A stretch of 64,000 bases of DNA from Sodiomyces alkalinus F11 (taxonomy: Eukaryota > Ascomycota > Sordariomycetes > Glomerellales > Plectosphaerellaceae). Numbering within the stretch: the stretch's first letter is position 1; each line of letters starts with the position of its first letter. Positions 8,361 to 54,620 of the stretch are shown one piece after another. The notes under the pieces were generated by a model that saw only the letters and a program-made list of their open reading frames with translations, did not search any database and was not told where the DNA came from. The position numbers and the translations under genes are program-made. The stretch covers positions 1,415,471 to 1,479,470 of the forward strand of contig NW_021167079.1 in assembly GCF_003711515.1 (NCBI RefSeq), read 5' to 3'.

Positions 8361-8713
8361 TATTACATAGGTTATCGTAAAGAGTGAAAAGGTAGGGTTA
8401 AGTAAGGAACCAGGTATAATTATAATAGAATCACGATAGGGAAAGTATAGAGGTAGCTAAAGAATCAGATTAATCGCTGGCCTCCCTCTTTAAAGGGGAG
8501 GCTCCTCCGCTCCTTAAGATTACGTTCCGCTGCTCCTCGAGGACTGCTTATTTGCTTCCTTAAGGGCTGCCTTATTTACTTCGAGGGACTATTCTGTTTA
8601 CTGTGTGACGACTTGCTTTATTTATACCTTAAGGGGCCTTAGACTAGGCACGCCTGGACCCCTATGGGTTTATACTGGGGACCCATTATGACTACTGCTA
8701 TAGACACCTAACA
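8361..8713 (-). repeat. Element A 5' LTR
   Basis: The right boundary (TG on the minus strand) is set by the repeat at 1-113. The left boundary is inferred from the last TpA (former CA) next to a candidate self-priming site at 8350-8358, so it is less certain. The length would be about 353 bp. Confidence 0.65.
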
Positions 8714-9790
8714 CCCTACTAGTGTGTTAGGTATAATAGTAATAAGAGTTTAACTAGTAGATATAGAGGCAGAATAAAGCTATCCTATAAAGGCTTATCG
8801 AACGCCCGGCGATAAAGCGCGAATATAAGAAGCCACTAGTCTATAACTATAAGACCCTAGCAGAGAACGCGACCGTTACTAAGATTAACGATTAGGTATC
8901 CGCGGTCGAGGCCGGAAACCATTTTCGGGTAAAGGCCCCCGTACTCTAGTTAATTAAATAGGCTTTAACTAAGCTAGAATAATCCTACTAGATATCGTGG
9001 CGGAGTTATAAACGGAAGCTCTTATCGCCTATATAGGACGACTTTAAGGCGTTTATTTGGCGAGAATACCTATCCCGCGACTTATAGTACTTTTATTACC
9101 GGGAGGAGCTATATAAGTCATTTATTATCGGCGAGATAACGCCGATAAAATTATTCGAATAATAGGATAACTACTATTACCTATTAGGGTAAAAGACGTA
9201 TAGTAGCGAAGAGCGTACGTACGACTATTTTTAATAACTACCCGCACGGTTCTGCGATAAGCTTTATAAGCGGCGGGTTAAGCTTAAAGAGGCCTATACG
9301 GTAGCGTAGGAGGCGTAATTACTTTAGGAGATATACTCCCCGAATAATAGGTCTAATAGCCGGAAAAGGTCCTACTCCTACTATTAGAAGGATAACCCGT
9401 CGTAGAGGGGACGGTATCCGTCCGCTAAATAGTCGAAAAGCACCTTAAAGGGGTAATAATAAGCGATAAAATCTTTATTATCGACGACTACCCTTAGCGC
9501 CTAAAAGACCTCTAGGTTAGATAAACCCTTTAATAGGGAGTGCTATAACTATAGTAAAAAGAGATACCGGTCTAAGGACTACTATAGTAAAGACTATAAA
9601 GACGGCGGTAAGGGCTCGGCGAAGAAAAGCGCTAACGTAAGTAATATTTAGATTTAGGGGGAATTAGCCCTTAACGATAATATACGGATTACTAAGATCC
9701 TTAATAGCCCGGGAAACGGATTAGCGTAGTATAAGGGGTAAGCACTACATCCATAAACGCCCCGAAATAGGTCCTAGTCGGTAAAGTCGC
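8714..9790 (+). pseudogene. gag: Element B gag, 5' end lost behind element A
   Basis: The plus-strand frame corresponds to 53570-54620 of element G. A zinc knuckle lies near 9540-9600 (CYNYSKKRYRSKDYYSKD), where the second Cys, the His and the last Cys have become Tyr or Arg. The capsid part includes FIWREYLSRDL-like and REELYKSFIIGE segments found in both copies. Gln codons read as TAG throughout. Confidence 0.75.
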
Positions 9791-12488
9791 GCGAGGAGTT
9801 ATATATATTATCCGAGAAGGGCGTAAGGTTAAGCTTAGCGTTAACCTCGATACGGGTATATAAGTCGATATTATTAGCCCGGTATTAGTAGAACGGTTAA
9901 AGTTATAGCCGTTAAGCGGAATCTAGGCCCCGGCTCTAAAAGGTTTTAATAGCCGAGCGGCGAGTAGCCGCGGAGTATATAGCTTAGCCTTCTATTTAGT
10001 AGACTCTAAGGGGAGGCTCTAACTCTTAGAGAGAGTATTTATATATATAGACCGGCCGAAGGGGTTAGGTGATTTACTATTATCGAATAATAGTATAGAT
10101 TAGGAGAGTATCCTAATTAATACGGCTAGCCGACTATTCGGCTTTAGACCGCTCTTTATCGCGGAACTCGAGGCCTAGGCCTAGGAGGTAGTAGAGTAAA
10201 GGGCGAAGGCATACGTTATATATATTACTATAGCTACCGCTATTACGAGTAGTACCCCGGATACAATAATTCTATTAGTGGACGGCGATAAACCACGGCC
10301 TAAAGGCGTGCGTTTACCTTTTAGTTTATAATAGTTCGAAGATATATTTTCGGAAGAAGCAGCGAAGGAACTACCTTTATTAGAGGACGCAGAATATTCT
10401 ATTAACCTATAAAAGGGGAAGGAGCCCCTATTCGGGCTTTTATACCCGCTATTACCTATATAGCTCAAGGAGCTAAAGAAGTATATCGCTAAAGGTATAG
10501 CGAGCGGTCGTATTCAGAAATCGACTAGCCTAATAGGGTTATTAGTCCAATTCGTGCTAAAAAAGGATAGTAGTCTTTACCTATATATCGACTATTATAG
10601 GCTAAACGCCGCTACGATTAAGAACGGGTACCCGCTCCTACTAATTTGGGAATTACTAGATCGCCTTTCGGGCACTTAGTACTTTTCGAAGGTTAATATC
10701 CGAGATACCTATTATAGGATCCGGATTAAGAAAGAGGACTGCTAGAAAACCGTATTTAGAACACGGTATAGGCACTTTAAGTACACGGTTATACTATTCG
10801 GGACAATAAACACGCCCGCGATATCTTAAATGTATATTTACTAAGTACTCGCCGGTTTACTTAATATCTACTATATCGTATACCTTAATAATATCCTAAT
10901 CTACTCCTATACTAAAGAGGAATACACGAAGCACCTATAATAAGTCCTTAAAAGGTTACGGCGTTATTAACTATATACTAAACTATTAAAATACGAATTT
11001 TATAGGGACCGGGTAGACTTTTTAGGGTTTATAGTAAGCTATAAGGGTATTATAATAGACTTAGAGAGAGTATAAGCGGTAGCCGACTAGCCGGCGTTAG
11101 AATCTTTTAGGGATATATAAGTCTTCCTAGGATTCGCGAATTTCTATAGGAGGTTTATTAAAGGGTACTTAAAGGTTATAATACCCCTATCCGCGCTACT
11201 AAAGGGTAGTAAGGCCGGCGTGAAGAAGGGATTATTCTATTTTCCGCCGGAGGCTTAAGAAGCTTTTAAAAGATTAAAGGTTACTTTTAGCTTAGCGCCT
11301 ATTCTACGCTATTAGAACCCCGTGCTAGACTCTAGAGTTAAGACGGACGCGTCGGATAAAGTAGTATCCGGAATTTTAAGTTAGAAGCACGATTTATAGT
11401 AGCGATTAATCGCTTACTATTCGCGAAAACTCACCGATACGGAATAATAGTAGGCTATAGGATAATAGGAGTTATTAGCTATTATAGAAAGCTTAGAGCA
11501 TTAAAGACACTACCTTAAAGGTATAGGGTAGGCGTTTACGGCCCTAATAGACTATAAAGCCCTAAAGGGCGTATTACGGGCGCTAGCGCGGGACCTTCGC
11601 GGAAGGCTTACTAAATAGGTGTATCGGCTTATATTTTTCGATTTCGAAGTATAATATCGCCCGGGAAAGATAAACCTAGCGGATAGTCCATCTAGGAGGC
11701 TAGACTATATAGGGGGGGAAATATCCTATAACGATATCCTCCCTACTCTCTTTAGTAAGCTAAGTCTAATTAATAATATATAGGCGAGTATTCGCTAATA
11801 GATTATATAAATCCACGTTACCCTAAAGAAGGCGGTTCTTTTCGTATACGTGTAGGCCGTTAGGAGGTTATTTTAGGAGAAGGACCTTAGACTTAAGAGA
11901 TAACGGGTCGCTCCGCTAAACGAAGACGTCGCGTAGCTAAGCTCTAGAGTAGGGCGATAAGGGTAATAGCCACCTCTAAGCCTAAAGGATAGCACCTCGC
12001 GTATTATCGTTATAGCGATTATACGGGCTAAGAAAACCCGCGGTAATAATATAATAGTCTAGCAGGCCTCCGCCGACTATACGCCGGAGGAGGAGACTAA
12101 GGCTAGGGTTACTATAATCCCGGATTAGTATATCCTACGCTCTATAGTATAGGAGCTTACTAGGGGCGAAACGGTAAATCGTCTTATATCTAGCGAAGAG
12201 TTTAAGTAATTAATTAGAGGACTATAGACTACTAACACCGACTATATATCTTTAACGGTAAATATTCGATAAGAGACCGGAAAAAGAGCGGGGTACTCTT
12301 TAGACGAAAATAGCACGCTATATTATAGGGGAAGACTAATAATCCCCGAAAAGGCGATAATTAGGATGGAGATACTACGCTAATATCACGATAACCCCTA
12401 TACGGGATATATAGATATAAATAAGATACTAAAGCTAGTATTAAGAAAGTTTTATTAGGTTAACCTAGCGAATAACGCTCGCGAATAT
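9791..12488 (+). pseudogene. pol: Element B pol, first part: PR-RT-RNase H-start of integrase
   Basis: This is the plus strand and collinear with G. Protease near 9838-9900 has NLDTGI where a DTG active site is expected. RT is about 10490-11010 and contains DYYRLNAATIKN and YLNNILIYS, with both catalytic Asp changed to Asn by G-to-A. RNase H is about 11270-11700, ending RPGKINLADSPSRRLD. The zinc-binding start of integrase is interrupted at 12488 by element C, and the rest follows at 26751. A minus-strand open frame at 10181-10468 is a shadow of this region. Confidence 0.85.
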
Positions 12489-12844
12489 TATAACTGTATA
12501 AAGACATAGTGGCACCAGATCGTCAAGACAAAGATCAGACAAAGAGGTCAGTCCAGTAAGACCACGATACATAACCAAAACATAACCAACACCGCTATAA
12601 CCTTTAGTGAAGAAGTAGATCGGTAGTCACTATTCTGATCAGGGCACGTAAGTTAAACTAGAAAGATACCTTAAACGTAGAACAAGTAATTATAAAAGAG
12701 GATAATAATTATATCTTAATCCCTCGATAGGGACGTCCCGAGCCTGTTCTTAATATATATATAGGTAGCGGATCCAGCGGCCTTAAAAGGGGGGTTATAT
12801 AACCGTCTGCCAAACCACTCTAACGCCGTATCTACGCGGTTATA
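12489..12844 (-). repeat. Element C 3' LTR
   Basis: It is about 90% identical to 26396-26750, with transitions dominating. In this copy many CA/TG survive that read TA in the other copy (for example GGCACCAG against AGTACTAG), so the two LTRs took RIP hits independently. Confidence 0.9.
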
Positions 12845-13063
12845 ATATGGCCCTAGTTATCTTAATTACGCCCTCGTAGCGTAGATAACTCCTAAAAATA
12901 AGCAGATATAAGTAAATAAACTAAGTAAAAAGCTATCGTATACCCTTATTCCTCTAATCACCCCGTCCTCCACGTATACCTAATTAAGGATCCTCTTAGT
13001 TCTAGTTTCTCCGTATATACTATTCTCTTACTATCTCCACCGACTATTTCCTTAAGATATCTC

Positions 13064-14983
13064 TTATCCAATCCTTTATATATACCTCTACTTACGCTTT
13101 CGTAAGGCTTTTTCTCCGACTCTATAGTCAGGCTTATTAGCCTTCCTAGCCTCTTAATTAGCGGTAGCCTTATCTGCCTCCTATTTAATCCCCGCGTTAT
13201 AATAAAGCTATCCTTCCTAAGGTATAGCCCGAGGCGGCGGTAGATATAGTGCGCTATTAGCCACTATATCACGGAGGCCTACTCGGTATAGGTTATTAAA
13301 GGACTTAACCTATTCTTCCTTAGTATACAGGCTCGGCCTAATAGGACTAACACGCTTAGCTAGAGGCCGTATATCTACGAGTTTATAATAAAGTAGGTAA
13401 TAAGATATCTCCGTGCCCTTAGCCTAGTACTTCGCCTCCTCTTCTTATTTATCTTAGATATCGTAACCCCTTTTCTTTAAAGCGGTAGAGGGTTTAGAGG
13501 CCTTTAGAGTCTTAAGCGTCTTAGGCATCTTTAGGGGCGGCGTTTTCATAATAGCCGGCGGCGTTTACTTCACGGCTTTCTTACCCTTAGGTGTCTAGAG
13601 CTCGAGACTACTAAGACCTATATCGTCGACGTTATTACTACTATCGGATAATACTAAGGGGTTCTAAAAACTCTGGCCGGACGAGTTAGTAAGGTCTATA
13701 ATCTTAGGATCAGGGGAACTAGTAAGGTTAATAGACTCTTCCTTAACTTTAGGCGTCTTAGGAGTCTTAGGACCCTTAGGCGGGTTAACCAGTATTTATT
13801 TCTTAGTCTTATTAATAGGCTAGAATCCAGTCGTCTTAAGGGCCTTGGGAAATAGCGTCGCGGGCTTTATAGCCAGTTCTATATAGTAACCGAAGCCAAA
13901 GAGTTCACTAATATAAATCACCTAGCCTTCTTTAATATACCGAGTATATTCCCCTATATTATTCCCGTAATAGCGATCTTAAGTAAACCTATAAATCTTA
14001 GAGCTCTAAGGGAACAGGTATCCCTCTTAGACTAAAGCTTTAATCCATTCTATAATAAAAGGACTATATAAGTAACCGTCTAGCTATATAGGGCTAGGGA
14101 TAATATAGAACTTATTAGCTATACTATTAACGGCTTTTTTAGGAGCTCCGATAGAAATTATCCACTATATCGTAAGATAGGCGACTTTAAGGAGGCGTTA
14201 TTCACCTTTACCGTTAGACTATATACTATTATACCTATATATAGTCTAAGTCTCCTAGTCGATAATTAGACTAATAAAATAGTTACCGTCGATATAGCAG
14301 ATTATAGGGATAAAGCGGCTAGTTTTAGTATATTACCGCGCCTTATCGGAGAGAGTTATAAACTCCGCCTTACCCTTAGTATCTATTCCCTAGCACGGAA
14401 TCTTATTAAGGAACACCGTAAGCCTCGAATCCCCTTACCTACGGCTAACCACCGCACTTATCACTTCTTCTATAGTACTCTTCTCTTACCACCTATTAGC
14501 CTTAATATCTTTACGTAGCCGGTAGACTAATATTAAGATAGAACGGACCTTAAGATATCCTTCGCTATATAAGATTATTAAAGGCGATTATAATACGGCG
14601 AGCCCTACGGCCTCTACGTCTAACCCGTTATTCTTATTTTTATCCAGGAGTCCCTAAACTATTTACTAGCCGTCCTTCGAGATAGCTCTAAGCCCAGTAT
14701 AAGGGGTATCGTTATCTACGGCCTTAAAGAGGCGGTGCGGTAAACCACTTACTAGGAACGCCCACCTACTCTTCTTAGGGTTATACTCCTTACGGGGCCT
14801 AGTACTCGATTCGATAGCGGTCCGTCCCTTAGGCTAAATACCTTTATTCAGGTCTAAGCCTTTAGGGGTAGTAGCCTAGTAGTCTATAGAGTTATTAGCG
14901 GCTATAGCATCGATATTCGCAGGATCTAGTATCTACGGTTACTCGCGTTACCCTAATTAGGGTCTTTAGCAACGATTCCTTAT
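13064..14983 (-). pseudogene. Element C accessory gene: Ulp1/SENP-like (C48) SUMO protease, RIP-inactivated
   Basis: It lies on the minus strand, in the same direction as pol, and is exactly 640 codons from ATA (former ATG, 14983) to TAA (13064), with one frame throughout. Residues about 215-315 carry the C48 layout. The GN-x-FISLIID stretch has Tyr235 at the His site. YRYNSI has Asn252 at the Asp site. PI-stop-LDGYLYSPF has TAG300 at the Gln site and Tyr306 at the Cys site. His-Asp spacing is 17 and Gln-Cys spacing is 6, identical to yeast Ulp1 (514/531, 574/580) and SENP1 (533/550, 597/603); Asp-Cys is 54 (49 and 53 there). Each catalytic change, and G-to-S at 307, is a single CA-to-TA or TG-to-TA step. 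C-terminal to this are a Pro/Thr/Lys-rich tail and INLTSS (418) and IIDLTNSS (428), which resemble SUMO-interacting motifs. The intact protein would cleave SUMO or a SUMO-like bond. Confidence 0.75.
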
Positions 14984-15717
14984 AAAACAAAAAGAGAAAA
15001 AGGGAAGAAGGGATATTCGGGGGGGGAGGAAATAAGGAGATCGATATAGCGGAAAAGAGGTAAAATATAATAGGGAAGAATAGGTAAGCCTAAGTCTATA
15101 AGGAAATATCGAAAGGGGGGAGATTAGGATTAATGCTAAGGAGGGTTTTATTTATTCTCTAAGGACCTCTTCTAAAGGCTTTTCCCTTTAAGCAGGAGTC
15201 CTTAGCTTATAACTATAGCTCGAATAGTCTTTTAGTCGTTAAAGGAGGTTATTTCCTAAGTCGTGATAAAGATAGCCTTTATAAAATCGGAAAGAAAGTG
15301 TTAAATTAGGAAATCGATATTAGAAACGCTTACTATAATTAGCTAACTAGCTTCGGCGCTTACTATAATTAGCTAGCAAATATCTAATAAGGCTCTTCGT
15401 TTATTATTAGGTAGTAAGCGGAGTCGTGATTCTATAATAAAGGAAAATAAAAGGAGGCAGCTATAAATAGCTATAAAAGCAGGTCGAATAGTCGTGATTA
15501 CTTCGTTAGAGACGGCTCCCTTAATTTATAAAAGCTATAAGCCGCTTAGTTAACGTCTCTACTTACCTATCTCTTAAATATAAAAGATATAGGATCCCCG
15601 GCTCTTCGTTCCTCTTCTTCTAAGTAATATCACCACTTCTATAATTATCCTTACCGATAGCACTATCACTATAATAACTTCTTAACTTCTCGAACGCACA
15701 CTATAGCTTCTAAGTAT
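14984..15717. promoter_or_regulatory. Divergent intergenic region between the two element C accessory genes
   Basis: I see no reading frame here. On the minus side, just before the Ulp1-like start, stands a pyrimidine run (TTCTTCCCTTTTTCTC). On the plus side there are TATA-like boxes (TTTATAAAAGC near 15522, AAATATAAAAGA near 15577), followed by a CT-rich run near 15605-15630. This is what a two-way fungal promoter would look like. The segment also has a repeated GCTTACTATAATTAGCTA pair at about 15329 and 15357. Confidence 0.4.
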
Positions 15718-16921
15718 ATAATTAGGGTATTAAATAAAGCGGAACCGTATAAACGTAAGAAGGCCGTTAGTAGACAGGAGTCCGTTAAGCCTATTCCGTG
15801 GTTTTAGTCTAAAACAGATCTAATAAGGGGCACTCCTAATAAGTATAATATTTAGGTAACGCCTATAAACATAACCATAAGTTTTCCTTCCTTATTTCTC
15901 GTGGTTACCCTAATCAGAGCGTGCTGACTTTAGTGCTAAGGTTAATACTTATATCGGTTAGTTTAAGATAGCTAGTAAGGGCGGCGTTTCGTATATCGAG
16001 CTCGACCTTTTCTCTTCTATCGTCGATTTAGATACTCGGCTTACCGTTACGAACCGGTTTTAGGATACTTTATTAAATATTACTAACCAGGACATAGAAT
16101 AGGCTCTATTCAGGGAAATACGTGACTTCTTTAAGACGCCCTTATTCCGTTATTGTATTTTCGTGGCTAAGGATCTCGCGGGCCCCTAAAGAGAGTATAT
16201 TATAAAGATCGTGATAAGGCCTTACGCCGCCAGGGCACTTATTATATAGGTATATAGCGTAGTTAATAAGGTACCCTACTAGTGCTATGAAGAATGCTAG
16301 ACAGCTATAACAGATCGGGTTAATAATAAGATTATATACCTATTCTATAAGTACGTCTCCTTATTATAGAATCCACGCTTCCCTAACTACGCTAACTATC
16401 TATTCTATAAGTCTGCTTATATATTCCGAGATAAGGGCCTCCGTAAGGAGTTCTAGTAGGCTAAGCATAAGATTAGCTAGCCCGATAATAATCACCCCGG
16501 CTTTAAACACTATAATCCCCTCCCTAAGGATAACTTAGTGCTACCGTAGTCTTTCTATAACGATAAATAATACCTAATCCACTCCCCTCGGACTAGCGTT
16601 TTCCTAATTAATATAACCGCTATAGGCTATAAGATTACTCGCTAAATACGCTAGGCCTATAGCGGTAAGACCTCTAAGGCTCACGATAGCTTACTTAGTC
16701 TTATCCTAGTGCTCTTAGCTCGGTATAGGAAGGAGGTGGATAGGTATTATAATATTATCCGTAAGGCTAAGGAGGTGCCTAACCGGGAGGAAATAGTTAT
16801 CTACTAGACTATTCTGCTTCCTAAGGAGGCTTAGGTCTAGCACCGGGTCTTTAAGAAGTACGGGCCTAAGGAAGGTAACTATAAAAGCGACCCTAACCCA
16901 GAAGCTAAGTTATTTACTTAA
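15718..16921 (+). pseudogene. Element C divergent accessory frame, about 380 codons, unknown
   Basis: It is read on the plus strand, opposite pol. The start is inferred at ATA 15718 (former ATG), giving a basic N-terminus (NKAEPYKRKKAVSRQES). This frame reaches about 15855. From about 15902 the reading continues in a different frame to TAA at 16919; GT at 15856 and TCAG at about 15914 could be intron ends, or there is an indel. The main part is a mixed globular sequence with VSYIELDLFSSIVDLD, FVAKDLAGP, ARYRKEVDRYYNIIRKAKEVP and a Lys-rich end. Internal stops are TAG/TAA only, at likely Gln positions. I do not recognise the family. It faces the Ulp1-like gene across a shared 0.7-kb intergenic region. 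Confidence 0.55.
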
Positions 16922-16933
16922 TAGGGTGCTTTA

Positions 16934-18290
16934 TAATCAGGGGAATAGGTAGTAAGGATAGGTACGCGGTTTATAGGGTGGCTTATAGGGAAAGGAATCA
17001 GATAGTTAATCATCTAAATAATATAACTCTAATAGATAAACGGGATTTCTATAAAGTAATATTCCCTAGTGCTTAGGGTATTGCTCTTTTCGCGAGAACT
17101 TTATAACAGGTCTAATCAGGGGAATAGGTAGTAAGGTTAGGGGAAATAAGGTATAAAAGGAGGTCTTCTTCGTGGCTTATCTTCTTCTCTTTTTCCTTCT
17201 CTTTATAATAATCCGTTTTCTACTCCACACGAGTAGACTCCACGAGCCTATCTACCGATAAAGCCCTTATAAAAAGAATAAGATTTATAGGCAGCGGCCG
17301 GCAATCGCTTAATCAGGCTAACGAAACTAAGGAATCCCCGGGTTTTCCGGTTTTTATTATTATTACCGCCGTCGTTATCGTGATATTACGTTTTTCTTTA
17401 TTAGGGTTTTTTCTGGCGGGGCTCTTAACGCCGTTGACTTAGTGTCTTAAACTTACTCTTCTAGTAATAGGTATAGTGTTAGTCTTTTCTTTCCGGACGA
17501 GGAACCTACGTATAGTAGGCTTAAGGGTAGTATATATAGGTATAATCAGGGGAATAGGAGTATAATATTAATTATAGGGAGAGCGATTAGTAATAGAGAT
17601 CAGGAAAAAGGGGCTTTAAGTAGTAGGAAGGGGGTGGCTCTTATACTTCTAAAATCGGCCTTTAAGATTAACGTAATAACCTAATAAGTTACTAGTACTA
17701 GGGTTAGTAAAGGAGAGATTTACGGTTTACGGCTTATAGCCTCTAACGGTATTTCTCTCGATTATATTATACCCTTAGTAACCGTCCCTATACTAGTTAT
17801 TCCCGACTATAACTCCCTTCCGCAAAATAGGCAGCTTATAATAAACCAGGTATAATTTAGCTTAGGTCCGATAAATTATACGGTAATCAGGGGAATAGAA
17901 GTAAAGAATTCAAGATTATAATAAAAGAAACCTATACTTATTACAGAAAAGAGAGTATATAGTGGTATATCTCTATAACGTCCACGTAGTTAGGCTTACT
18001 TATAAATATAATAAATAATAAATATAGGGAAAAGTCTTCTAATCGGGGAAATAAGTCTAGATAGGTTTATAGTGTCTCTAATCAGGGTAATAAAGGTAAA
18101 AGTTTAAAAAAGAAACGGACCAAGGTGATAGTTAGGAAGATTATTTATAGGTTTACGTCCTTTATACTAGTGTATATCGCGACTCTGGGTAGATAAGAGA
18201 CTTAGCTTTATTTACCCTCGGCCCTAAGACTATATACTAGCCTCCTAGCGAGTACAGGCTTTAAAAATAAAGGAAATCAGGGAAAATAAT
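16934..18290 (+). repeat. Dispersed short repeat TAATCAGGGGAATAG in element C spacer
   Basis: A 24-bp stretch (TAATCAGGGGAATAGG, continued GTAGTAAGG) is identical at 16934 and 17113. Shorter copies begin at 17543 and 17884, with weaker ones near 18039, 18067 and 18272. Related CTAATCAGGGG strings occur in gag-pol near 23409 and 25349. The spacer itself has no pol-strand frame. Most CA in this window reads TA, so the retained TCAGG is notable. Confidence 0.6.
17212..17565 (+). pseudogene. Element C small antisense frame, putative two-pass membrane protein
   Basis: This is a plus-strand frame of about 115 codons ending at TAA 17563-17565. Upstream are a TATA-like box (GGTATAAAAGG, about 17149) and a pyrimidine tract (CTTCTTCTCTTTTTCCTTCTC), as in front of a fungal gene. 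After a polar start come two hydrophobic stretches, FIIITAVVIVILRF with FLAGLL, and LTLLVIGIVLVF, then a basic tail. Only one internal stop (TAG at PLT-stop-CLK) interrupts the shown part. I recognise no family. An envelope-like role would be speculation, and a small chance frame cannot be ruled out. Confidence 0.3.
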
Positions 18291-21200
18291 AATAAGGAAT
18301 AAAATACAGCTTGCTAGTATAATCCTCGTACTTACTCGGGTTAAAATCTAGGCGCTATAGAATCTACACCTCGACGGTACTAGACTCCCTTACCTTTTTT
18401 AACTCTTCTTCCAACTTCTTATAATACTCCCCTAATAACTCTCTTAGTCTCTCGGAGCGGCGTAAAATATCGTTAATAGTATAATTAGGGGAACTAATAT
18501 TATCCTCGGCCCTAGTATCTTCTTTAAGGTCCTCGCTAGGTAAAAGGGGTGCTTCGGTGACTTTTTCGGTAATAGACGCTCCTCGGGCAGGGTATATGAT
18601 CTTAAGCTCTTCGCTATAGTCCCGTTTAAGTATAGTCTAGTCCTTAGGCTCTTAATGCCTATCGTCGTTTTTAATAAACTTCTTTAGGCGGTTAGCGGTA
18701 AAAGTAATCCCTTTTAGTTCTTCCCTAGTAAGAGTCTTAAGGATAAAGGACTTATTATCGTGATTAGCCTTTCGGATACGATATAGGCCGTTCTAGCGGT
18801 AGTCGAGCTTAGCCTTACGGCTTATATCGATAGCTTTCTCAGTATCGTAAACCAGTATAAGATCCTTAACTTATAGCCTTTACTTACGGAGTACCCGGGC
18901 ATGGCTAGCGTTAATATAGGCTATCCGTCGCCCTTATTATTTAGTGATGATAGTAATAGTAGCTTATTAGTTAGTATTAAGCTAGGCAAAAGCCCTTAAC
19001 CGAAGCATTATCTTATCCTTAGGGGTTTTAACGCGACCCTAGTCTAGTACTCTTTAGGTTAGGCAAGTCGTCTTAATCGGGGTAATAGCCTTATAGCTAT
19101 ACAGAAGGAAGAAAGGAGTGCAGCTAGTGGAAGCTCTTACTGTTATATAGTTAGTGAAAAGAATTATCGGGAGGATCTCGTGAAGGGCTCTAGGGTAAAG
19201 CTTCGACTAAATAGATAGAGCGTGGGTAATAGCCTTATACCTAACCTCGTTAAGGCTATTAGCGCGGGGGTAATAGGCCGAGGCGAGCTTTCGAGTAGTC
19301 CTATAATAACGGTTTAGCTCGATCACCTAACCCTTATTCTCTAGACCTCTATCTATAAGGAGGATTATATAAAGCCTATACCTATAGATTATATCTTCCT
19401 ATAGGAATAAGGTAATAGCCTTAGACGTATTCTTTTTTAGTAGTCGGGCCTTAACCTAACCTATAAATATATAGTAGGCCTCTATAAAATACTATCCTTA
19501 AAGATATTAAACGTCTAGGCAGACCCAGGTAAAAGGGAGGGCGGCCTCGGGTAGGCTTATTACGATTAGGGGGTCCTCCTAAGAACGGCTACGGCGGGCC
19601 TAGTATTTAGAACAGGACTCGATAAACCTCTAAACGCTCTTATAGATACTATCCTAGAAGTAGTTAGCGGCGAGGCGATAGTAGGTGCCTTACCTTCCTG
19701 GGTATCCGGATTCGTTATAGGCTCTCCTAATTAGGTTAACCTAGGTATTCTTATCGTTAATCTAGCGTTTAGGGGTCGAATCGGCTTTAGTCACTCGGGT
19801 CTATAGTAGTCCGTCCTTAAGGAATATATAGGTGGCTCTATCTTTAACTCTACGGGCTTCCTTAGGATCTATTCCTCTAACCACGCGAAAGGTTATTAAA
19901 AAGGTGGTTACTTATCGGGAAAACTGACTCTAGGTAAGGTCCTTATTAAGGATATCGTTAGCTAAGGCAGGGTCGTCGAACTGTTTCTCGGCTTCCGTGA
20001 GGAAGATTCTATCGTCCACGAAGTCGTTTAGGTCTCCTTCGGTATCATTATTAGTCTAATTAGAGGGTATTCCGGGTATCCGTAAGAGTTTATCGGCTAT
20101 AGTATTCTTAGATCCTTTAATATACTTAACGTCGAAGTCGAAGAGCCGGATCTAGGCGAGCTATTAAGTAATTAGGGCACTAGGGAGGTTAGTAGTAGAT
20201 CCTTTTAACTAGGATAGGAGGGCTTAGGTATCGGTTTTAAGGATAAAGTAAACCCTATAGAGGTAGTTATATAGGCGTCGAAGGGTTTTTAGGACTCCTT
20301 TTAGCTCTAGCTTACTAGTATTATAGACCCTCCCGTAGGAGACTAGCGTCCGCTTTCGTACCGTGCCACGGCTCTCTTATCCTTAACGTACTATCCGAGG
20401 ATTCTACCCTATCTATCTATACTAGCGTCGATAATAACGTAGATAACTCCCACGCCTTCGCCGTACTAAATAGTAATCAGGATAGGAGTAGTGGTAAGGG
20501 CTTTCTTAAGGGCGTTTATAGCGTATTATTAAGGCTCCTCCTACTTAAAGGCAGTATTCTTCCGTAGCAGGTCGGTTAGAGGTCTAGCGATAACGGCGAA
20601 CTTATAAATCTAGACTCGGTAAAAGGTAGCGAGACCGAGGAATAAACGAAGATTAGAAACCGTACTATACCTTTCCCACTATCGGACCTTCACGATCTTA
20701 GCCTACTTAGGGGAATAGCTATTAGTACCGTAGATATAGCCTATAATAATAGCTGCTTTCTAACACTACTAGCTCTTAATACCTACGATAATACCTTTAG
20801 CTAACTCCACGTTAAGAAGCACTTTATCGATATTAGCGATATACTCGGCTATAAAACGGCGAATTCCAGGTCTAATTAGGGTATCCTTATAGGTAGTTAT
20901 CGGTCCTTTTACTATAATATTATTAATAAAGAGTCTATAGTACTAGAGAATAAGGACGTAAAGAATACGGGTTATAATACGCATAAACTAGGCCACTAAA
21001 TTAATAGCCCCCTAAGGAAGGGTATATATCCTAAAGAGTCTAATAATAGTCGTAAAGGTAGTTAGGTCTTAAGACTCCTCGTTAAGGGTGACCTAATTAT
21101 AGCCGGAAAAGAGGTCTAAAAGGGATATAAGCTTATATATAGCGAAATCCTCGGAGAACTCGTTAGCCTTAGGCGGTATAAAGGTATCTTGAAGGGTTAC

Positions 21201-22899
21201 TACGTTAATCTTAGTAGCCGAGTTAATAAGCCGTATATTACCGTCCTTCTTCTTAACTAGGAACCAGGGGTTACGATAGGCTACGTGGCTCTCCTCGATC
21301 ACACCTTTCTTAAGGCGGTCCTTTATTATCTATACGACTATAGACTCTAGAGCCTTAGGGATAAGGATCCCCTTCGCCTACTACGCCTTATAAGGAACCG
21401 CTCGAATCTTCTATAAAGGGGCCACCCGTTCGTTAAAGCGGCCGTACTTAGTCTAATCCTATATAATAGCTACCTCTCGGTTTAGGAGGACCTTCGTTAG
21501 GAGCTCCTTTTCCTTAGGGGTTAAGTAGTCGACGGTCTTCAGGATAGCGTTAAGTCTTTCGGGTATAAGGCGCGAACGGGGTATAATTTTAGAAAACTTC
21601 GGTATAATCAGGCTAATAAACCGCTCGTCTTCTAGCTCCTAATCTTCCTCTTTAATTTCTACGAGGATATTCTTCTTCTAGTAGGGGTCTTTATCGGGGA
21701 CACTTCTATTAGACGGAACGTCGTTAAGAGGGTAAACCTTAAGAGCCTTAGGCTTCTATATAGTAAAGACGCCTTCGGGGTTAGGGGGATAGTATACTTC
21801 TTTAATAAGATCCTAGGACTTCCTCCTCTTCGGCTACTATAGCCTCCTCGTCGTAACCGCGGCTATATTAGTAATACTATCCTCCTCTTTCTTTAGAGCC
21901 TTGAGCGCTCTTATCTAGGAATTATCCCACGTCGTCCGGTCCTTTTAAAAATATAAGACTAAGAGGCTATTAGGGTGATTAGGCTAATAGTGGTGTGGAA
22001 AAGTCGAAAAAGATAAGTGGTTAGTATAAATTAGTTATTATTATATAGTCGTAGTTATTATATAGGGAGTCTCCGTAACACACCTCTTATATCCTCGGCC
22101 CTAATTTCGTAGCATCGCCCTTAAGGCTATATAAATTCTTTTCGCTAGGGGCTTTACCTCCTCTATAAATAGGAAGGCTACTAAAGCAGTAGCGTCCTTA
22201 TTATCTAAATAAAAGAAAACATCGTCGTTGCTCTTCTTCTTCTTCTTCTCCTCCTTCTCCTCCCTCGCCTCCTCCTTCTCTTTCGCCCCCTAATCGGGTA
22301 AACCGCTAGTCCTATTATTACTCGATATTAAGGTGGCGGCCCCGGACTAACTATAAAGGACGCTATCCTCCCCTTATTATCCGATACTCTAATCGATTAA
22401 ATCCTTCTCTTCTCGACGCTTCTCCTCCTCTTTAAACTTAGGCTAGCTCTATCTATAAGGGCAGTTATTAACCTATTCTCTACTAGCGATAGGGATAATA
22501 ATACGGGCGTCCCCGTAGGCGAAGTCTATATTAATCTATCCGTCCCTATAGGTAAAAGAGGCGTGACTATTAAGTAAGAACGGCAGGCTAAAAAGTATCC
22601 TAGGCCTTATTCCCTCGATCACGATAAAATAAACCTTCTTATACTAATCCCCGACCTAAAGGTACTCTTCTAGATATCCTACGTAGTTTACCCTATCTAT
22701 ATCGTTAATTCCCTTAATCGCGATATTACTTTTCCCTATATAGCTCCGTAATCCTAGCTTTTCAACGAGATCTAGCCGGATAGTATTAAAGACGGCTCCT
22801 ATATTAATAACTACGTAAAAATAATCCTCCGTAAGGCAGGCCTTAGCTATTCGCTTAGTTAGGCTAACCCGTATCGTTATATACTTAGCGTAAATAGTA
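18290..22899 (-). pseudogene. pol: Element C pol: protease-RT-RNase H-integrase, RIP-inactivated
   Basis: It continues the gag frame on the minus strand. Protease at about 22760-22830 reads VINIGAVFNTI, where the DTG active site has become NIG. RT at about 21330-20870 begins RNPWFLVKKKDGNIRLIN and contains LLDLFSGYN, the form seen in many fungal gypsy elements. RNase H (about 20700-20050) and integrase (about 19900-18950) follow. The C-terminus has the GLYRIRKANHD...RLKKF pattern, with no chromodomain, and then an acidic tail to about 18290. The final part is in another frame from the RT, so one indel or frameshift lies between. Many TAG stops make it dead. Confidence 0.8.
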
Positions 22900-25895
22900 G
22901 GAGGCTTTAGCTTATTAATTATCGGGGCGGGCGTAATAGACAGGGCATTATCAGGCGTAGGGGTAATAGTCGTGGTATTCGTAAATAATACAGGATATTC
23001 GGGTCCTAGGGGTAAGGAGTCCGTGTAAAAGGCTTTTTTAGGGGTTAAGCGGATAACTTTATAAGGCTTTACCTAGCTACCGATTAACCTTAGCGTCTCC
23101 TCGTAGTCCGCGAGGATAGCTCTATTAGTGGAGAGGAGGTAAACTATAGGAACCTTAACCTCTATCTCTAAAAGGTGCTTTAGGCTCTTTTCTCGGACCT
23201 TCTATATAATAGCCTCCTAATTAAATAAATTAAGGGTATCCTTCTAAGCCGAGGCTTATAAGGCAGGCCGGGTAGTAGTTAAGGTAGTAGTAAGTCCAGA
23301 TATAGGGGCTATCGAATTAGGGGTTAGACTATCGTCTATATCGGTATCGTTAACTATCTCTATAACCCTTTAGGAGCTTTCTGGAGTCGATAGGGTCTAT
23401 TAAACGGCCTAATCAGGGGAACCAGCTACTTTTAGCGTGGGTTTACTAATTCTACCGCTCCTAGTAGTGCGAAGAGGGTCCTAGGGGTCGGTCGAAGTGT
23501 GTCGAGATATAGACGCAGTATACACTCTAGCAGTAATAAAGTTAATAGATCCCGTAACCTTAGTAACCCTTAAGGCTTAAGTGGCTTAGGTAGCCTGACT
23601 ATTCTAACCGGTCTACTGCTTCTATGCCTGCTTAACTATATACTTAATTATAAGCCTATTAGTCTTATTAGTCTTATAGGGGAGGGTAACGGGCTAAAAG
23701 ATCTTAATATAGAGGTCTATAAGCTCCTTAAATCGGCTATAGAGCTTAGTAGCTAGCTAATATAGTATAAGGCATCGGTATAGCTAGTACTTATTAACTT
23801 ATAGCTCGCTCTTTAGGCAGGCTACCTAGGTACCGGTTTAATCTATAACTAAATACGCGGAGAACTCCTACTTAACTAGGTTATAGGCGCTATCGTGGAT
23901 TAGGATAGGGTAGTTATCTCTCCGATACCCTTCTTAGCCGTAGTAGTAGCAGCGAGCTAGCGGGGGCTGGCTATTACTCTAGGCATCTCTTTACTATCCT
24001 AGGCGGTTATCGTGTTATTAGGTCGGGCGGCTATCGTTACGCCGGTTATTATATTTAGAGCGGGGTCCTCCGTAGTAGATCTTCTCGGTATACTAGGCGT
24101 TATTAGGCTAGGAAGCCGTACCGTTAGCCTGATTAGGGGTGGCGAAGTGTACTAAAGCAGTTATCGTAGGCTAAGGGGCGTGTTTAAGGACGGTGTAGAA
24201 GGCGTTTTTTAGGTTAGACTTCGTGGCGAGGAGGGCTTAGACCTTCTCTATACCTATCCTCTTAGATAGGGCGAGTACTTAGGCGGTAATGCCCCTAACG
24301 CCTTTAGCTCTATTATAGATAAGGGAAATAGTATACTTCTCGAGGAGGTCGGCGAGCTTATCTATATCCGATTAAGAGGCTATAGACTCCTAGACTATAG
24401 TAGGCCGCCTTAAGATCGTGGGCTGGAAAGCGGTACTATTAGACTGATTAGACTTAGTTATACCTAATATAGCGTCCTTATCTATAAGCTTACCCTTTAC
24501 TTCCTAGATATCCGTAGACCACTCGCGTAGTAGGTCTAAAAGTAGCTTATAGCTCTTAACTATCTTTCTTAAGTCGGTGCCTCGAATCTTAAGCTTATTA
24601 GTAATAAATATATAGATATCCTTATATAGAATAGTAAGGACGATACCGTAGAGCTCGTAGTCCTTAATAAAAGTGCCTTAGACCCGCTCTGCCTTAGCCT
24701 TCTAGATAGTAATTTACTATAGTAAGTCCCTAACCTAATAAACGCTATTAATCTTATACGTCTTATACTTTACCCGAAGCTAATAAACCTCGTAAGAAAA
24801 GTTAAGTTAGTAGTCAGGATCTAGATAAGAGAACTCTTTAACGAGCTTCTTAACTAGATTAGACTAACCGCCCTTATCGGCTTAAACCACTTTAATTAGG
24901 CATTCGATAGCGGGACGAATAGCCGTGTCCGTGTATAGGTTAACGTAAATAATCTTATCGGCTTTACTAAGGCGGTTAAGCTTAGTATAGTTATTATACT
25001 GCTAAAGGAATATGGAGAGGGACTTACTACTAAAGCGGGGAGCTCTAGTAGCGAGGGGATTTAGGGGTACTCTTAACGTAGCGGTGGCAGGGGGCAGGGC
25101 TCTAATAACCTTAGCAATAATACTCTCTCGGTCATAGCTTATTAAGGCTTATAGCAGCTTAATCAGGTCTTTAGCGGTAGTAGGGGAAACGTTTAAAGCG
25201 GGCTAGGCAGTAAAGATAGGCTAGACAGGGGCAGTAATAGGGGTAGTGTCAGGGGCAGTTATCGAAATAGTAGCCGAAGCCGCAGCAGATATAGCAGTCG
25301 GCCTAGAAGCGGGCGGAGGCAAGGCCGTAGTCCTAATATCGTGGTTCCCCTAATCAGGGGCAGCAGAAATAGCAGGCGTAAGAATAAGGGGAATAGCCGG
25401 CGAGGGAGCCTTATCGTTAGAGTCGCTAACGACGATAACAGGGGTAGGCTCACGATACTAAGTCTAAGTATCTACAGTATTTTAGGTATAAGTACGAGGG
25501 GGTAGGCGAATAATAATAATAGGGTTAGGCCGCTTAGGGTATTCAGGGAAAGGTTCTTCGAACTAATCGTCTAGCGAGAAGATCCTATAGGTATTCTAGA
25601 TACTAGCTAGGTTATTATATATATTATCTCGTCTTAATAAGAGTAATAAGGTCTTTAACGAGAGGGCGGTCTTAGGTTTTACTCCTTAATACTTATCTTC
25701 GGGGTCTAGCTTTTCTAACTCACCTCGAAGGAAGAGGCCCCCTACGATTAGGAGATTATCTATTAGTAAAGGGGCTATACTCACGGCTATTAATATTAAA
25801 AGCACTACCCGCTAAGCCTCGTAAAGAAGTATCACGACCTACTCACGGGGTCTATAGAGGTCCTTACTAGACTATCGGGTCCTCTTATAAGGCAT
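22900..25895 (-). pseudogene. gag: Element C gag, long frame with zinc knuckle and SIM-like motif
   Basis: The start is chosen at an intact ATG (25895), followed by MPYKRTR. The frame stays in register with the zinc knuckle at residues 649-662, the protease and the RT, so no indel has occurred in about 4.6 kb. The knuckle C-x2-C-x4-H-x4-C reads C649, Y652, Y657, Y662: only the first ligand survives. Around residues 153-159 stands VIVVSDS followed by NDK, which matches a SUMO-interacting motif (hydrophobic core plus acidic/Ser tail). Ala/Pro/Thr-rich linkers surround it. At roughly 650 residues before the knuckle this Gag is long for the family. Gln/Trp codons read as stops. Confidence 0.8.
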
Positions 25896-26373
25896 TATTA
25901 TTTCGCTCCTATACTTAGTATTAGCTTTTTATTAGGTTTACTAGGGGTTAATTACCCTAATCCGGGCAAGCTACTCTTAGCGGTCTTATCTTTTCTTCGC
26001 CGTTATACGAGAATCTATTTTAATTAATAGTAGGGGTTATAAGCCCCCTATCGAGTCTATTCTATATCCGGAATCTAACTCTATCGCGATCTAATCGGTT
26101 TCTTCTATTTCTATAATTACCACCTCCGTGGCGGCGGGTCTTATAATTAAAAGTGTTAATACTTCTTTAACTCTTACCTAAGCAGTTATTTCTTTTCCTA
26201 ATCTTATTAGGGCAAATCTCCTTTCGGTCTTAAAGCGTTAAATCCTTCCTTAGTCGTTATCTTTATATTCTTCTTAGGGTTATTAACTAATAGTCCATTT
26301 AGGAGGGCCGGAACCTCCCTTAAACGCCTCTATTACTCTAATCAGGGTTAGAACACTTTAGGAACGCCGAATA
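25896..26373 (-). other. Element C leader between PBS and gag
   Basis: These 478 bases lie between the primer site and the gag ATG. I see no frame of their own; gag-like triplets upstream of the ATG are broken. It probably holds the packaging signal. Confidence 0.4.
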
Positions 26374-26392
26374 AATCCGCCTCCGAGCACTA
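26374..26392 (-). other. Element C tRNA primer-binding site
   Basis: Three bases inside the 5' LTR on the minus strand lies TAGTGCTCGGAGGCGGATT, where TAG is probably a mutated TGG. Its complement ends AGCACCA and can be cut into T-loop, T-stem, a 7-base acceptor strand, a discriminator base and CCA, so it fits a tRNA 3' end. I cannot name the tRNA. It supports the minus orientation. Confidence 0.6.
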
Positions 26393-26395
26393 TAT

Positions 26396-26750
26396 TATAA
26401 CTATATAAAGACGTAGTAGTACTAGATCGTTAAGATAAAGATCAGATAAAGAGGTTAGTCTATAAGACCACGATACATAACCAAAACATAACTAACACCG
26501 CTATAACCTTTAGCGAAGAAGTAGATCGGTAGTCACTATTCTAATCAGGGCACGTAAGTTAAACTAGAAAGATACCTTAAACGTAGAATAAGTAATTATA
26601 AAAGAGGATAATAATTATATCTTAATTCCTCGATAGGGACGTCCCGAGCCTGTCCTTAATATATATATAGGCAGTGGATCCAGCGGCCTTAAACGGGGGG
26701 TTATATAACCGTCTGCCGAACTACTCCAACGCCGTATCTGCGCGGTTATA
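26396..26750 (-). repeat. Element C 5' LTR
   Basis: This is the second copy of the LTR at 12489. On the minus strand it runs TATAAC to GTTATA and is followed by a tRNA-type primer site. The shared block CGATAGGGACGTCCCGAGCC is intact in both copies. Confidence 0.9.
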
Positions 26751-27718
26751 ATATATCGCCGTATACTCGGCTTATTAAGGCGCTTAGGTACTAAGGTATA
26801 AATGGCACGGATAACTATAATCGTTATTACTATTATTATACCCGTTTTAAGAAATCGCTATAGACTTTATTACGGGTTTCCTACCCGTAAAGGGCAGAGA
26901 TAGTTAAACTTATAACGCTATACTAATAATCATCGACCGCTTAACGAGGTATACGCTTTTTATACCGATCTATAAGACACTTATAGTACCCCGGTTAGCT
27001 ACTATCCTTTATAGCGAGGTTAAGTATTATTTCGGGCGCCTAAAGGGAATTATAAGCGATAGGGATAAGCTTATTATAAGTCTGTTTTAGGAGGAGTTCT
27101 ACCGCGAGAGGGTAACTACTTACCGATTATCTATTATATTTTACCCTTAGATGGACGGGTAGACTAAACGGACGTACTAGACACTATTTAAGTTCTTAAG
27201 AATAATAGGTACAGAGGCCGCTAATTACTAGCCGATCTGGTTATAAGAGGCTAAGTTTGCGTATAATAATAGCCTATATAGTTCTATTAGAGTATCCTTA
27301 TATAAGGCGTTTTACGGGTATTACCTAAGGATAGTAGAGTACGTTAAACCTAGAAACGATACCACAGTATAAGGCGTTAAGGAACGCGTTAAACGGTTAG
27401 CGGATATCCGCTAATAGATCTGCGCCTATTAAGAGGCAGCGGTTAAGACCTAGGCTAAGCACTATAATAAGAGGTATAAGCCTAGGAGTTTCGAAAAGGG
27501 AGAATTTATAGGGCTCGCTACTATTAATTTCTTATTTAAGGCCGGCTTAAAACTCGCGCCGCGGTATATCCGGGTAGAGATTTTAGAGCGGATCGGTAAG
27601 CTAGCGTATAGGGTTTGCCTGCTACCGTAGTACTTAAGGATATATAACGTGTTTTTAGTATCGCTATTAGAACCGTGGAAAGACGGGCTTATACCCGAGG
27701 GTTCGGCGAATAACCTAC
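26751..27718 (+). pseudogene. pol: Element B pol, second part: integrase core
   Basis: It continues the frame broken at 12488 and is collinear with 57350-58310. It shows IDFITGFLPVKG (first catalytic Asp kept), LIIIDRLTRYTLFI, an IISDRDKL-like second block, and the GVKERVKRLADIR and APRYIRVEILERIGKLAYRV regions of gypsy integrase C-termini. It is interrupted at 27718 by element D. A minus-strand open frame at 27462-27806 is a shadow that runs across the D boundary. Confidence 0.85.
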
Positions 27719-28016
27719 TGTTCAGAAGGAGATATAGGTCTACCCCGAAGGGACAAGGACCAGAGGGTAATAGAGAGTGACAGATAAGGATCGTAGTCTT
27801 ATACAAGGGGAGGCCAACTATAGGTTAACTAGTAGTTAATAGGAAGAATATCTTAAAGGTAGGTAGTAGTATAGAGGAGAGATAATCGCTAACCCCTTCC
27901 TTCCAGAATAGTCTAGCTCTCCGTCTTATATAATAAATATCCACTTATTAGTTAGTCGGTAATCCATTGCTATATTCTAGTACCTCCTAAGTCTTCCTTA
28001 TATCCTACACCTAATA
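27719..28016 (-). repeat. Element D 3' LTR
   Basis: This 298-bp copy matches 43011-43308 and keeps TGTTCAG at its left end where the other has TATTAAG. Both contain AGATAATCGCT (27880-27890 here), which can pair with the primer site next to the 5' LTR. Confidence 0.92.
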
Positions 28017-28697
28017 GGCTACCCCTTCCTAGAATAAGGCCTACCCTTAGGCTATAGCTAGTTACGGAGTACCCGTAGGGTGGGTAGTAGTTATCGGGTA
28101 AGGCGAGTGGGTTAATAGTACTATCGGTGATACGTGGGTCAGAGCTTAAAGAAAATAAAGCCGTAGGTAATCCACTGTTAAGTGACGGTAGAGCTAAAGG
28201 CTTAAAATATATCCTAACCTTAAATAGTGGTACTAGAGGATATTTTTAGGGGAAGAGAATAAAGAGAAAATTCCTTACGAAGTATGCTATGTTAGGTATA
28301 TATAAAGGCGTGGAAAGACCTACTATAGGTAGCTAACCGTTAATTAGACGGTGGTTTATAGTGATTTATTATAAAAAATAAGTCTATAAGAGATATATCT
28401 TTATATAATAATAGGTATAAAATAAAAGTTTAAAGTAGCTGTTTACCCACTATTAGATAGTAGTAGTATTATTAAACGGCTAATATCTCCCCGTTTATTA
28501 AACGCGTTCGTATTATTTATTCCGTGAATAGGGAAGTGCGTTACCAATAATAAAGGCGCGCCTGCCCTTCTATACGTAAATAGGAAAACGGTAGGTAAGA
28601 TAAGTAGGGCCTCCGTAATTATATAAAGGATCTTTTCGGCTATAAGCCTCTTTTCCTTTTCTTCTTCTTTTTCCTCTTTAGGTTCCCGAAGGAGGTT
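28017..28697. other. Element D 3' noncoding region with polypurine tract and possible antisense promoter
   Basis: On the minus strand the polypurine tract AGGAAGGGG lies at about 28022-28030, next to the 3' LTR. On the plus strand TATATAAAGGATC (about 28621) and a long pyrimidine run (TTTTCCTTTTCTTCTTCTTT, about 28653) look like a promoter pointing toward the antisense frame at 36124. Element E now separates them. I see no reading frame in this stretch. Confidence 0.45.
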
Positions 28698-53238: not shown

Positions 53239-54620
53239 TTCTTTAACTTCTATACCTATAAGGTTACCGGGCCGAAGATACTATTAAAGCGGACTTTACA
53301 AAGCACTGCCAACGCCGAGCGGGCGGATACGGGCGTGTAATAAGAAGAGCCTATTCGAGGTATTGAAGAGCGTTAGGACTAATAGGATAATAATAATAAT
53401 ACGGCCTCGGTATCGTCCCTTAGTTCGGTGTGAACGCGGACGTTATCCGTGGATAGTCGTCCATGGAGACTCGATATTAAATAAGCGAGGAGCGCTAAAT
53501 AGTCAGCGAGCTACGCGTCTTCCTACTATATAGGGCAACCATCCCCGATAACTACTAAGAACCTATTCGCCCTACTAACGCGTTAGGTATAGTAGTAATA
53601 AGAGTTTAATTAGTAGATATAAAGGCAGAACGAAGCTATCCTATAAAGGCTTATCGAATACCCGGCGATAAAGCGCGAATACAAGAAGCCACCGGTTTAT
53701 AACTATAAGACGCTAGGAGAGAACACGACTGTTACTAAGATTAACGATTAGGTATCCGCGGTTAAGGCCGGGAACCGTTTTCGGGCAGAGGCCCCCGTAC
53801 TCTAGCTAATTAAATAGGCTTTAACTAAGCTAGAACGCTCTTACTAGATATTATAGCGGAGCTACGAATAGAAGCTCTTATCGCCTATATAGGACGATTT
53901 TAAGGCGTTCGTTCGGCGAGAATACCTATCTCGCGACTTATAGCACTTCTACTACCGGGAGGAGCTATATAAGTTACGTATTATCGGCGAGATAACGCCG
54001 ATAAAGTTATTCGAATAATAGAATAACTACTATCGCCTATTAGGGCAAAAGACGTATAGTAGCGAAGAGCGTGCGTATAACTATTTTCGACGACTACTTA
54101 TACGGTTCCGCGATAAGCTTTGCGAATAACGGGTTAAGCTTAAAAAGGCTTATATAGTAGCGTAGGAGGCATAGTTACTTTAGGAGACGTGCTCCCCGAA
54201 TAATAGGTCCGATAGCCGGAAGAGGTCCTACTCTTACTATTAGAAGGATAACCCGTCGTAGAGGGGATAGTATCCGTCCGCTAAACGGTTATAAAGCACT
54301 TTAAAGGGGTAGTAATAAGCGATAAAATCTTTATCGTCGATAACTACGCCTAACGCCTAAAAGACTTTTAGGTTAGATAAACCCTTTAATAAGGAGTACT
54401 ATAACTATAGTCAAAAGGGATACCGGTCTAAGGATTATTATAGTAAAGACTGTAAAGACGGCGGTAAGGGCTTAGCGAAGAAAAGCGCTAATATAAGTAA
54501 TATTTAGGCCTAAGGGAATTTAGCCCTTAACGACGATATATGGATTACTAAGATTCTTAGTAGCCCGGGAAACGGATCGGTATAGTGTAAGGGGTAAGTA
54601 TTACGTCCGTAAAAGCCCCG
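53239..54620 (+). pseudogene. gag: Element G gag
   Basis: The plus-strand frame starts inside the coding region at the right LTR of F: KFFNFYTYKVTGPKILLKRT, an Asn/Ser-rich linker, then the capsid part shared with B (KREYKKPPVYNYKTLGENTTV, FRAEAPVL, RREYLSRDL). The zinc knuckle at about 54394-54441 reads YYNYSQKGYRSKDYY with all four ligands changed to Tyr. The true start lies left of F or was lost. Confidence 0.75.

Follow-up and report, generated by a model that had tools for sequence, protein, structure and literature searches.

What is encoded by a further reading frame in a retrotransposon family whose members are usually described as carrying gag and pol only? This question is raised by a long terminal repeat (LTR) element of Sodiomyces alkalinus F11, named here element C, in which the stretch from pol to the 3′ LTR contains a minus-strand frame (13064..14983) of 640 codons, 41 of them stops, in the same sense as pol. 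Coordinates refer to the window, i.e., the whole 64,000-nucleotide stretch of DNA analyzed, and genomic searches covered 43.4 Mb in 22 contigs. The initial annotation, made from the letters of the window, had proposed that this frame is a gene for a Ulp1/SENP-like SUMO protease whose catalytic residues can be recovered by undoing mutations, and that the element once manipulated host SUMO with it.

Element C occupies 12489-26749 on the minus strand (~14.3 kb) between two copies of a 5-bp target site duplication, AATAT, at 12484..12488 and 26750..26754. Its 5′ LTR (26396..26749, minus) and 3′ LTR (12489..12843, minus) are 93% identical, with 338 identical positions, 22 transitions, one transversion and three gap columns in the compared stretch; the earlier placement of the 3′ LTR at 12489-12844 agrees with this to about one base. 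The backbone, consisting of gag-pol and a spacer, is found at 17127..26390 (minus). Its pol is Ty3-like, with a match to the reverse transcriptase (RT)/RNase H of Ty3 at 20074-20352 (E = 9.9e-7) and, downstream of it, a match to Integrase_H2C2 at 19588-19740 (E = 1.5e-4; 22.2 bits, under the cut-off of 25.5). Paired LTRs, a short target duplication, and RT/RNase H followed by integrase are thus all present, as in Ty3/gypsy elements, and motifs resembling an aspartic protease and RT can be recognized by eye in one pol frame of the mutation-altered sequence. A primer-binding-site-like 13-mer adjoins the 5′ LTR (26377..26389, minus) and occurs 61 times in the genome, compared with two occurrences of its reversed control; no tRNA matching this site was found among the 10 of the 61 places examined.

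LTR-like repeats crowd the 64-kb window. Element C is nested inside an older repeat (8694-12487 and 26750-28307), which is itself probably an LTR element, and the empty insertion site is found in a relative within the window (53551-58307), with AATAC at 57339-57343. Three other pairs of direct repeats, 28702-29138/35337-35772 (6.6 kb apart), 45528-45750/53016-53236 (7.5 kb apart) and 1-111/8601-8711 (8.6 kb apart), are probably LTR pairs of other elements.

A search with the accessory gene gave 43 matches at no fewer than 40 genomic places, a copy number that is a lower bound because 40 of 109 candidates were scored. In 36 of the 40 loci, the alignment extends beyond the gene as far as the LTR end. 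All of these copies are decayed: at all 40 places, none of the three forward frames has fewer than 31 stops over the matched stretch, and the gene copies show TA/AT ratios of 1.75-2.15 and (CA+TG)/(AC+GT) ratios of 0.13-0.27. Element C has been inactivated by repeat-induced point mutation (RIP).

Nevertheless, traces of protein-level selection remain in the older variation. The alignment used here comprises 34 copies, six of the 40 having been set aside because they were truncated, carried an insertion or gave extra matches. Purine/pyrimidine splits common to three or more of these copies number 12/7/45 at codon positions 1/2/3, and those common to five or more 8/2/27. When splits from even a single copy are counted, most of them private, the distribution is 136/163/198. 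If the frame were non-coding, old variation would ignore codon position; a third-position excess is seen instead, and there is none in the flanks of the gene. Indels common to at least three copies are 9, 3, 3 and 3 bases long, and those common to two copies 9, 5, 1, 1 and 1 bases. The codon-position signal and the indel lengths together indicate that the gene still had a functional product as the family multiplied and that most of the decay came afterward. Accordingly, the accessory gene was under protein-level purifying selection during amplification of the family, the initial reading of the frame between pol and the 3′ LTR as coding holds, and a chance reading frame is ruled out by the 12/7/45 distribution.

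A wider protein search with the catalytic region, in which all 107 candidates were scored, returned 108 genomic matches, mostly in two classes: close copies of 64-100% identity, here called type A together with the window copy, and a second version of ~40-48% identity (typically ~46%), called type B, of which 16 copies were fetched. Stop-free matches were limited to two scraps of 25 residues. In type B, the catalytic residues can be read directly. This version is likewise coding, with splits of 22/24/55 by codon position.

The four positions named earlier, His235, Asp252, Gln300 and Cys306, correspond in the window to Tyr, Asn, a stop and Tyr, at 14279..14281, 14228..14230, 14084..14086 and 14066..14068 (all minus), respectively. 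The columns and their spacings of 17, 54 and 6 were chosen correctly, while the residues themselves are not those of the window, and the step of undoing mutations is borne out by the homologous type-B copies. In the 16 type-B copies, column 235 is His in 12 and Tyr in four, column 252 is Asp in 10 and Asn in six, column 300 is Gln in two and a stop in 14, and column 306 is Cys in 11 and Tyr in five. In 19 type-A copies, both columns 235 and 306 are Tyr in 18 and a stop in one, column 252 is Asn in 13, Asp in four and another residue in two, and column 300 is a stop in all 19. The catalytic order of Peptidase C48, His, Asp, Gln, Cys, is thus read in type B, and type A directly shows only Asp, with the same spacings in the two versions.

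Profile comparison points in the same direction. The type-A catalytic region (gene residues 140-385; 13829..14566, minus), represented by 24 copies, was aligned by hhalign with six C48 proteins at E = 1.3e-4, and the alignment matched the four catalytic columns unprompted. None of 200 column shuffles (maximum, 21.2) or 200 block shuffles (maximum, 25.6) reached its score of 37.5; with nine C48 proteins the score is 40.3 (E = 2.8e-5; best of 100 block shuffles, 28.0), and with four fungal C48 proteins alone 28.0 (best shuffle, 26.4). A full-length type-A profile performed much more weakly, with a probability of 5% and E = 0.0075. When 60 stretches from all six frames were scanned with stops as X, the top five (25.9-28.5) overlapped in the coding frame and contained the whole or part of the C48-like domain; outside that frame, no stretch scored above 16.7. 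Type B scored higher, 46.0 against the six C48 proteins (E = 6.5e-6; best shuffle, 29.1) and 48.3 against the nine (best shuffle, 32.2), and in its alignment the equivalent residues of C48 proteins fall opposite its Trp-Leu, His, Asp and Cys.

Domain databases are less responsive. C48 is the commonest Pfam family among type-B copies (five of 15), and the best match, in copy L059 with stops as X, reaches 20.6 bits, where the curated cut-off of PF02902 is 20.7. No copy of either type among those searched attained this cut-off, so the match above threshold by which the initial annotation had meant to verify its proposal was missed by a small step in type B; in type A, neither the window frame nor 19 full-length and 24 trimmed copies gave any C48 match in Pfam; the families hit instead were unrelated and the matches weak (best E, 0.011). 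No C48 chain appeared in PDB sequence searches with the element sequences or in PDB profile searches with A1, A2 and A6, and protein-database searches with the accessory gene found no homologue, though the database includes fungal proteins. AlphaFold models are of too low confidence to be used (pLDDT 38.1 and 37.9), their predicted order of elements being no more than compatible with clan CE, and Foldseek on a model of pLDDT ~38 had no C48 protein among the 50 of 667 matches listed. On balance, the type-B residues, the profile scores relative to shuffles and the Pfam tally uphold the proposed Ulp1/C48 identity, while a Pfam match at the cut-off is missing. A clan CE/Peptidase C48 (Ulp1-like) catalytic layout of the predicted protein has strong support, and there is good support for a putative C48/Ulp1-like protease gene being present in this fungal Ty3/gypsy element.

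The element protein shares with Ulp1/SENP proteins (PF02902; compared here were yeast Ulp1, 1euv, SENP2, 1tgz, 6dg4 and proteins of the host) the order His/Asp/Gln/Cys, the distances of 17 between His and Asp and of 6 between Gln and Cys, a Ser after the catalytic Asp and, in type B, a Trp-Leu motif preceding the catalytic residues. It differs from them in having His-Phe in place of His-Trp, a long linker rich in Lys and Pro, and a conserved C-terminal region, in being encoded by a retrotransposon, and in its Pfam score slightly below the cut-off. A degenerate host C48-like gene that is not RIP-mutated was also seen in the genome (L045, 4792-5842, on contig 11), and a protein search with it found six fungal proteins, the genera being Daldinia, Monosporascus, Lecanicillium, Seiridium and Fusarium. 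Motifs of the Asn-His-Phe and Asp-Gly-x-x-Cys-Gly-Pro styles are common to this family and the element gene; however, with four proteins of this family alone the hhalign score is 28.0, compared with 40.3 for the mixed set, so that the family stands no nearer to the element gene than C48 in general.

Other mobile elements with their own Ulp1-like protease domain are on record. According to the passages available, such domains occur in the DNA transposons Ginger1 and Mutator (PMC2836005) and in nematode NeSL and one Utopia non-LTR retrotransposon (PMC4640811). In these passages, the domain is C-terminal in the Ginger1 transposase and N-terminal in the RT protein of Utopia and NeSL, whereas element C, a Ty3/gypsy LTR element, encodes it in a gene of its own. 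As far as the available parts of their descriptions go, plant Retand and Grande elements resemble element C in having a long region from pol to the 3′ LTR and a frame antisense to gag-pol, and their extra frames carry TRP28 and a few other or unknown domains (PMC7264820; PMC11963269). Cassette exchange does not figure in these parts, the words “SUMO” and “Ulp” do not occur in those of PMC7264820, nor “Ulp1” and “SUMO” in those of PMC11963269. Likewise, words starting with Ulp are absent from the available text of a survey of LTR elements in fungi (PMC3248453), and Ulp1 and SUMO from that of a plant survey (PMC6317226). No Ulp1-like gene in an LTR element was recognized in the titles, abstract openings and passages searched, a body of literature in which subscription journals are under-covered.

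Beyond what the initial annotation had proposed, the accessory gene belongs to an exchangeable cassette together with an antisense frame. This frame, ORFB, runs antisense to pol at approximately 15905..16915 (plus) and is present in both cassette types with 48% amino acid identity between A and B. Between one A and one B copy, its transversions fall 62/45/93 on the codon positions, as is typical of coding sequence; within type A, too few splits are shared for a codon-position signal. The query 15905-16960 had 104 genomic matches, and ORFB gave no match in Pfam and no credible match in PDB. The cassette extends over ~3.9 kb (13190..17126), limits that are the blastn edges in one type-B copy, on contig 20, and are not base-exact; within it A and B are diverged, and the flanks are near-identical.

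The contrast between cassette and backbone is steep. Over 17127-20896, the part of the backbone covered by the comparison, the pol of the contig-20 type-B copy is 90.9% identical to the window, with 31 transversions in 3767 positions (0.8%) and without codon bias; the pol of a type-B copy on contig 1 has 6/997 transversions, and L074, from a second type-B copy, covers pol only. The LTR together with the last codons of the gene has 13/704 transversions between A and the contig-20 copy. In the accessory block, however, A and B differ by 21-24% transversions: 174/738 in the C48 region between the window and the contig-1 copy (79/246 at third positions), 171 in the same region relative to the contig-20 copy, and 200/972 in the antisense frame. 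In the pol survey, 40 of 100 candidates were scored; among the 40 matches listed, 20 have a type-A antisense frame no more than 3 kb away (88-100% identity of pol to the window), 16 have a type-B one (87-92%), and four have neither type within that distance.

The C48-like gene and the antisense frame therefore form one block, whose two versions are deeply diverged although joined to almost the same pol. Since pol does not separate A from B and the cassettes are diverged even at third positions, block and backbone have different histories; such divergence at third positions would not be produced by selection alone. The two have been recombined as modules, either by exchange of the cassette or by replacement of the backbone around an old cassette, which fit equally; template switching between co-packaged RNAs is the presumed route. 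The four pol copies without a nearby listed ORFB are C10:953769-955385 (96% identical over 1618 bases), C3:557429-559429, C8:2266357-2268357 and C2:859251-860943; in the C3 and C2 copies, an antisense frame is found 7.5-8 kb away. In these four, the cassette may have been lost, displaced by insertions, or be of a third type.

What the protein did is a separate matter. It might have been a processing protease for the Gag or particle protein of the element rather than a host de-SUMOylase. Clan CE includes virion proteases, related cysteine proteases process particle proteins in some DNA viruses, and a position after pol would be compatible with such a role. However, pol seems to carry its own aspartic protease motif in the usual place, a point made by eye that weighs little alone, and the A and B versions differ far more than the accompanying pol, which, with pol as the part of the backbone compared, fits poorly with an internal substrate. 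This role is considered rather unlikely. Another question is whether only type B was active, type A being a C48-fold protein for binding or scaffolding without protease activity, as might be suggested by the lack of any Cys at column 306 and of any His at column 235 in the 19 type-A copies. Yet the conversion of entire columns is common: 12 of the 43 majority-stop columns of type A are a stop in 19 of 19 copies, and stops cannot be ancestral. Codons for His and Cys always contain RIP-favored dinucleotides, and these residues are nearly gone from the whole type-A protein (0.23% and 0.32%). The missing His and Cys are thus no evidence of ancestral absence, and an inactive type A is unlikely.

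There are also explanations that concern the origin and identity of the gene. Genes for C48 proteins are found in other transposons and among host genes, and four C48 matches lie outside this element family in the host genome, so that a separate mobile element or a captured host gene could be imagined as a passive passenger. It is hardly credible for a passenger to be aligned at the same place up to the LTR end in 36 of 40 copies, to show codon-level selection during amplification, and to exist in two versions at the same place of the same backbone; a nested separate transposon was rejected on the shared place, the adjoining LTR and the two versions at one site. Finally, a real accessory gene might resemble C48 by chance, as the lack of a Pfam match above the cut-off, of a PDB match and of a usable fold would allow. 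Such a coincidence is very unlikely in view of the exact spacings of His, Asp, Gln and Cys in type B, of C48 being the commonest type-B Pfam family and of scores exceeding all shuffles run; chance likeness was rejected on the shuffles and the directly read catalytic residues.

Taken as a whole, a RIP-dead Ty3/gypsy element with a C48-type gene, exchange of modules and a putative de-SUMOylating product is the best explanation, and a quite probable one. C48 enzymes strip SUMO or related modifiers, as established for the family, and from this we infer de-SUMOylation by the accessory protein. The protein was likely an active cysteine protease. It would have taken SUMO or a related ubiquitin-like protein off host proteins, the chances of SUMO itself being the substrate standing about even, and this de-conjugation may plausibly have lifted SUMO-dependent repression of transcription or integration of the element. 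Swapping of cassettes would then have shifted the target range of the protease. More tentatively, the protease and the antisense gene may form an exchangeable counter-defense cassette, swapped as in viruses or phages during an arms race with SUMO-dependent silencing, a proposal that is possible but stays short of probable. In the passages available of a study in budding yeast, Ty1 expression rises on inactivation of Ubc9, or of Siz1 and Siz2 together, and its authors suggest that reduced SUMOylation activates Ty1, an effect that a protease carried by the element could likewise have on its own host; in the same study, ulp1 mutants also raise Ty1, for which release from the nuclear pore and lower SUMOylation are invoked (PMC8585004). 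Because Ulp1 is itself a C48 enzyme, the yeast evidence cuts both ways as to the direction of the effect.

Genes of this kind are hidden by RIP from domain searches because the codons for His, Cys and Gln hold RIP-favored dinucleotides. A ubiquitin-like-pathway protease that was selected and shuffled as part of a cassette suggests that retrotransposons carry and exchange dedicated anti-host enzymes, and it offers a testable link between SUMO and the control of retrotransposons in filamentous fungi. The history of the cassette hints at an old contest with the silencing machinery of the host.
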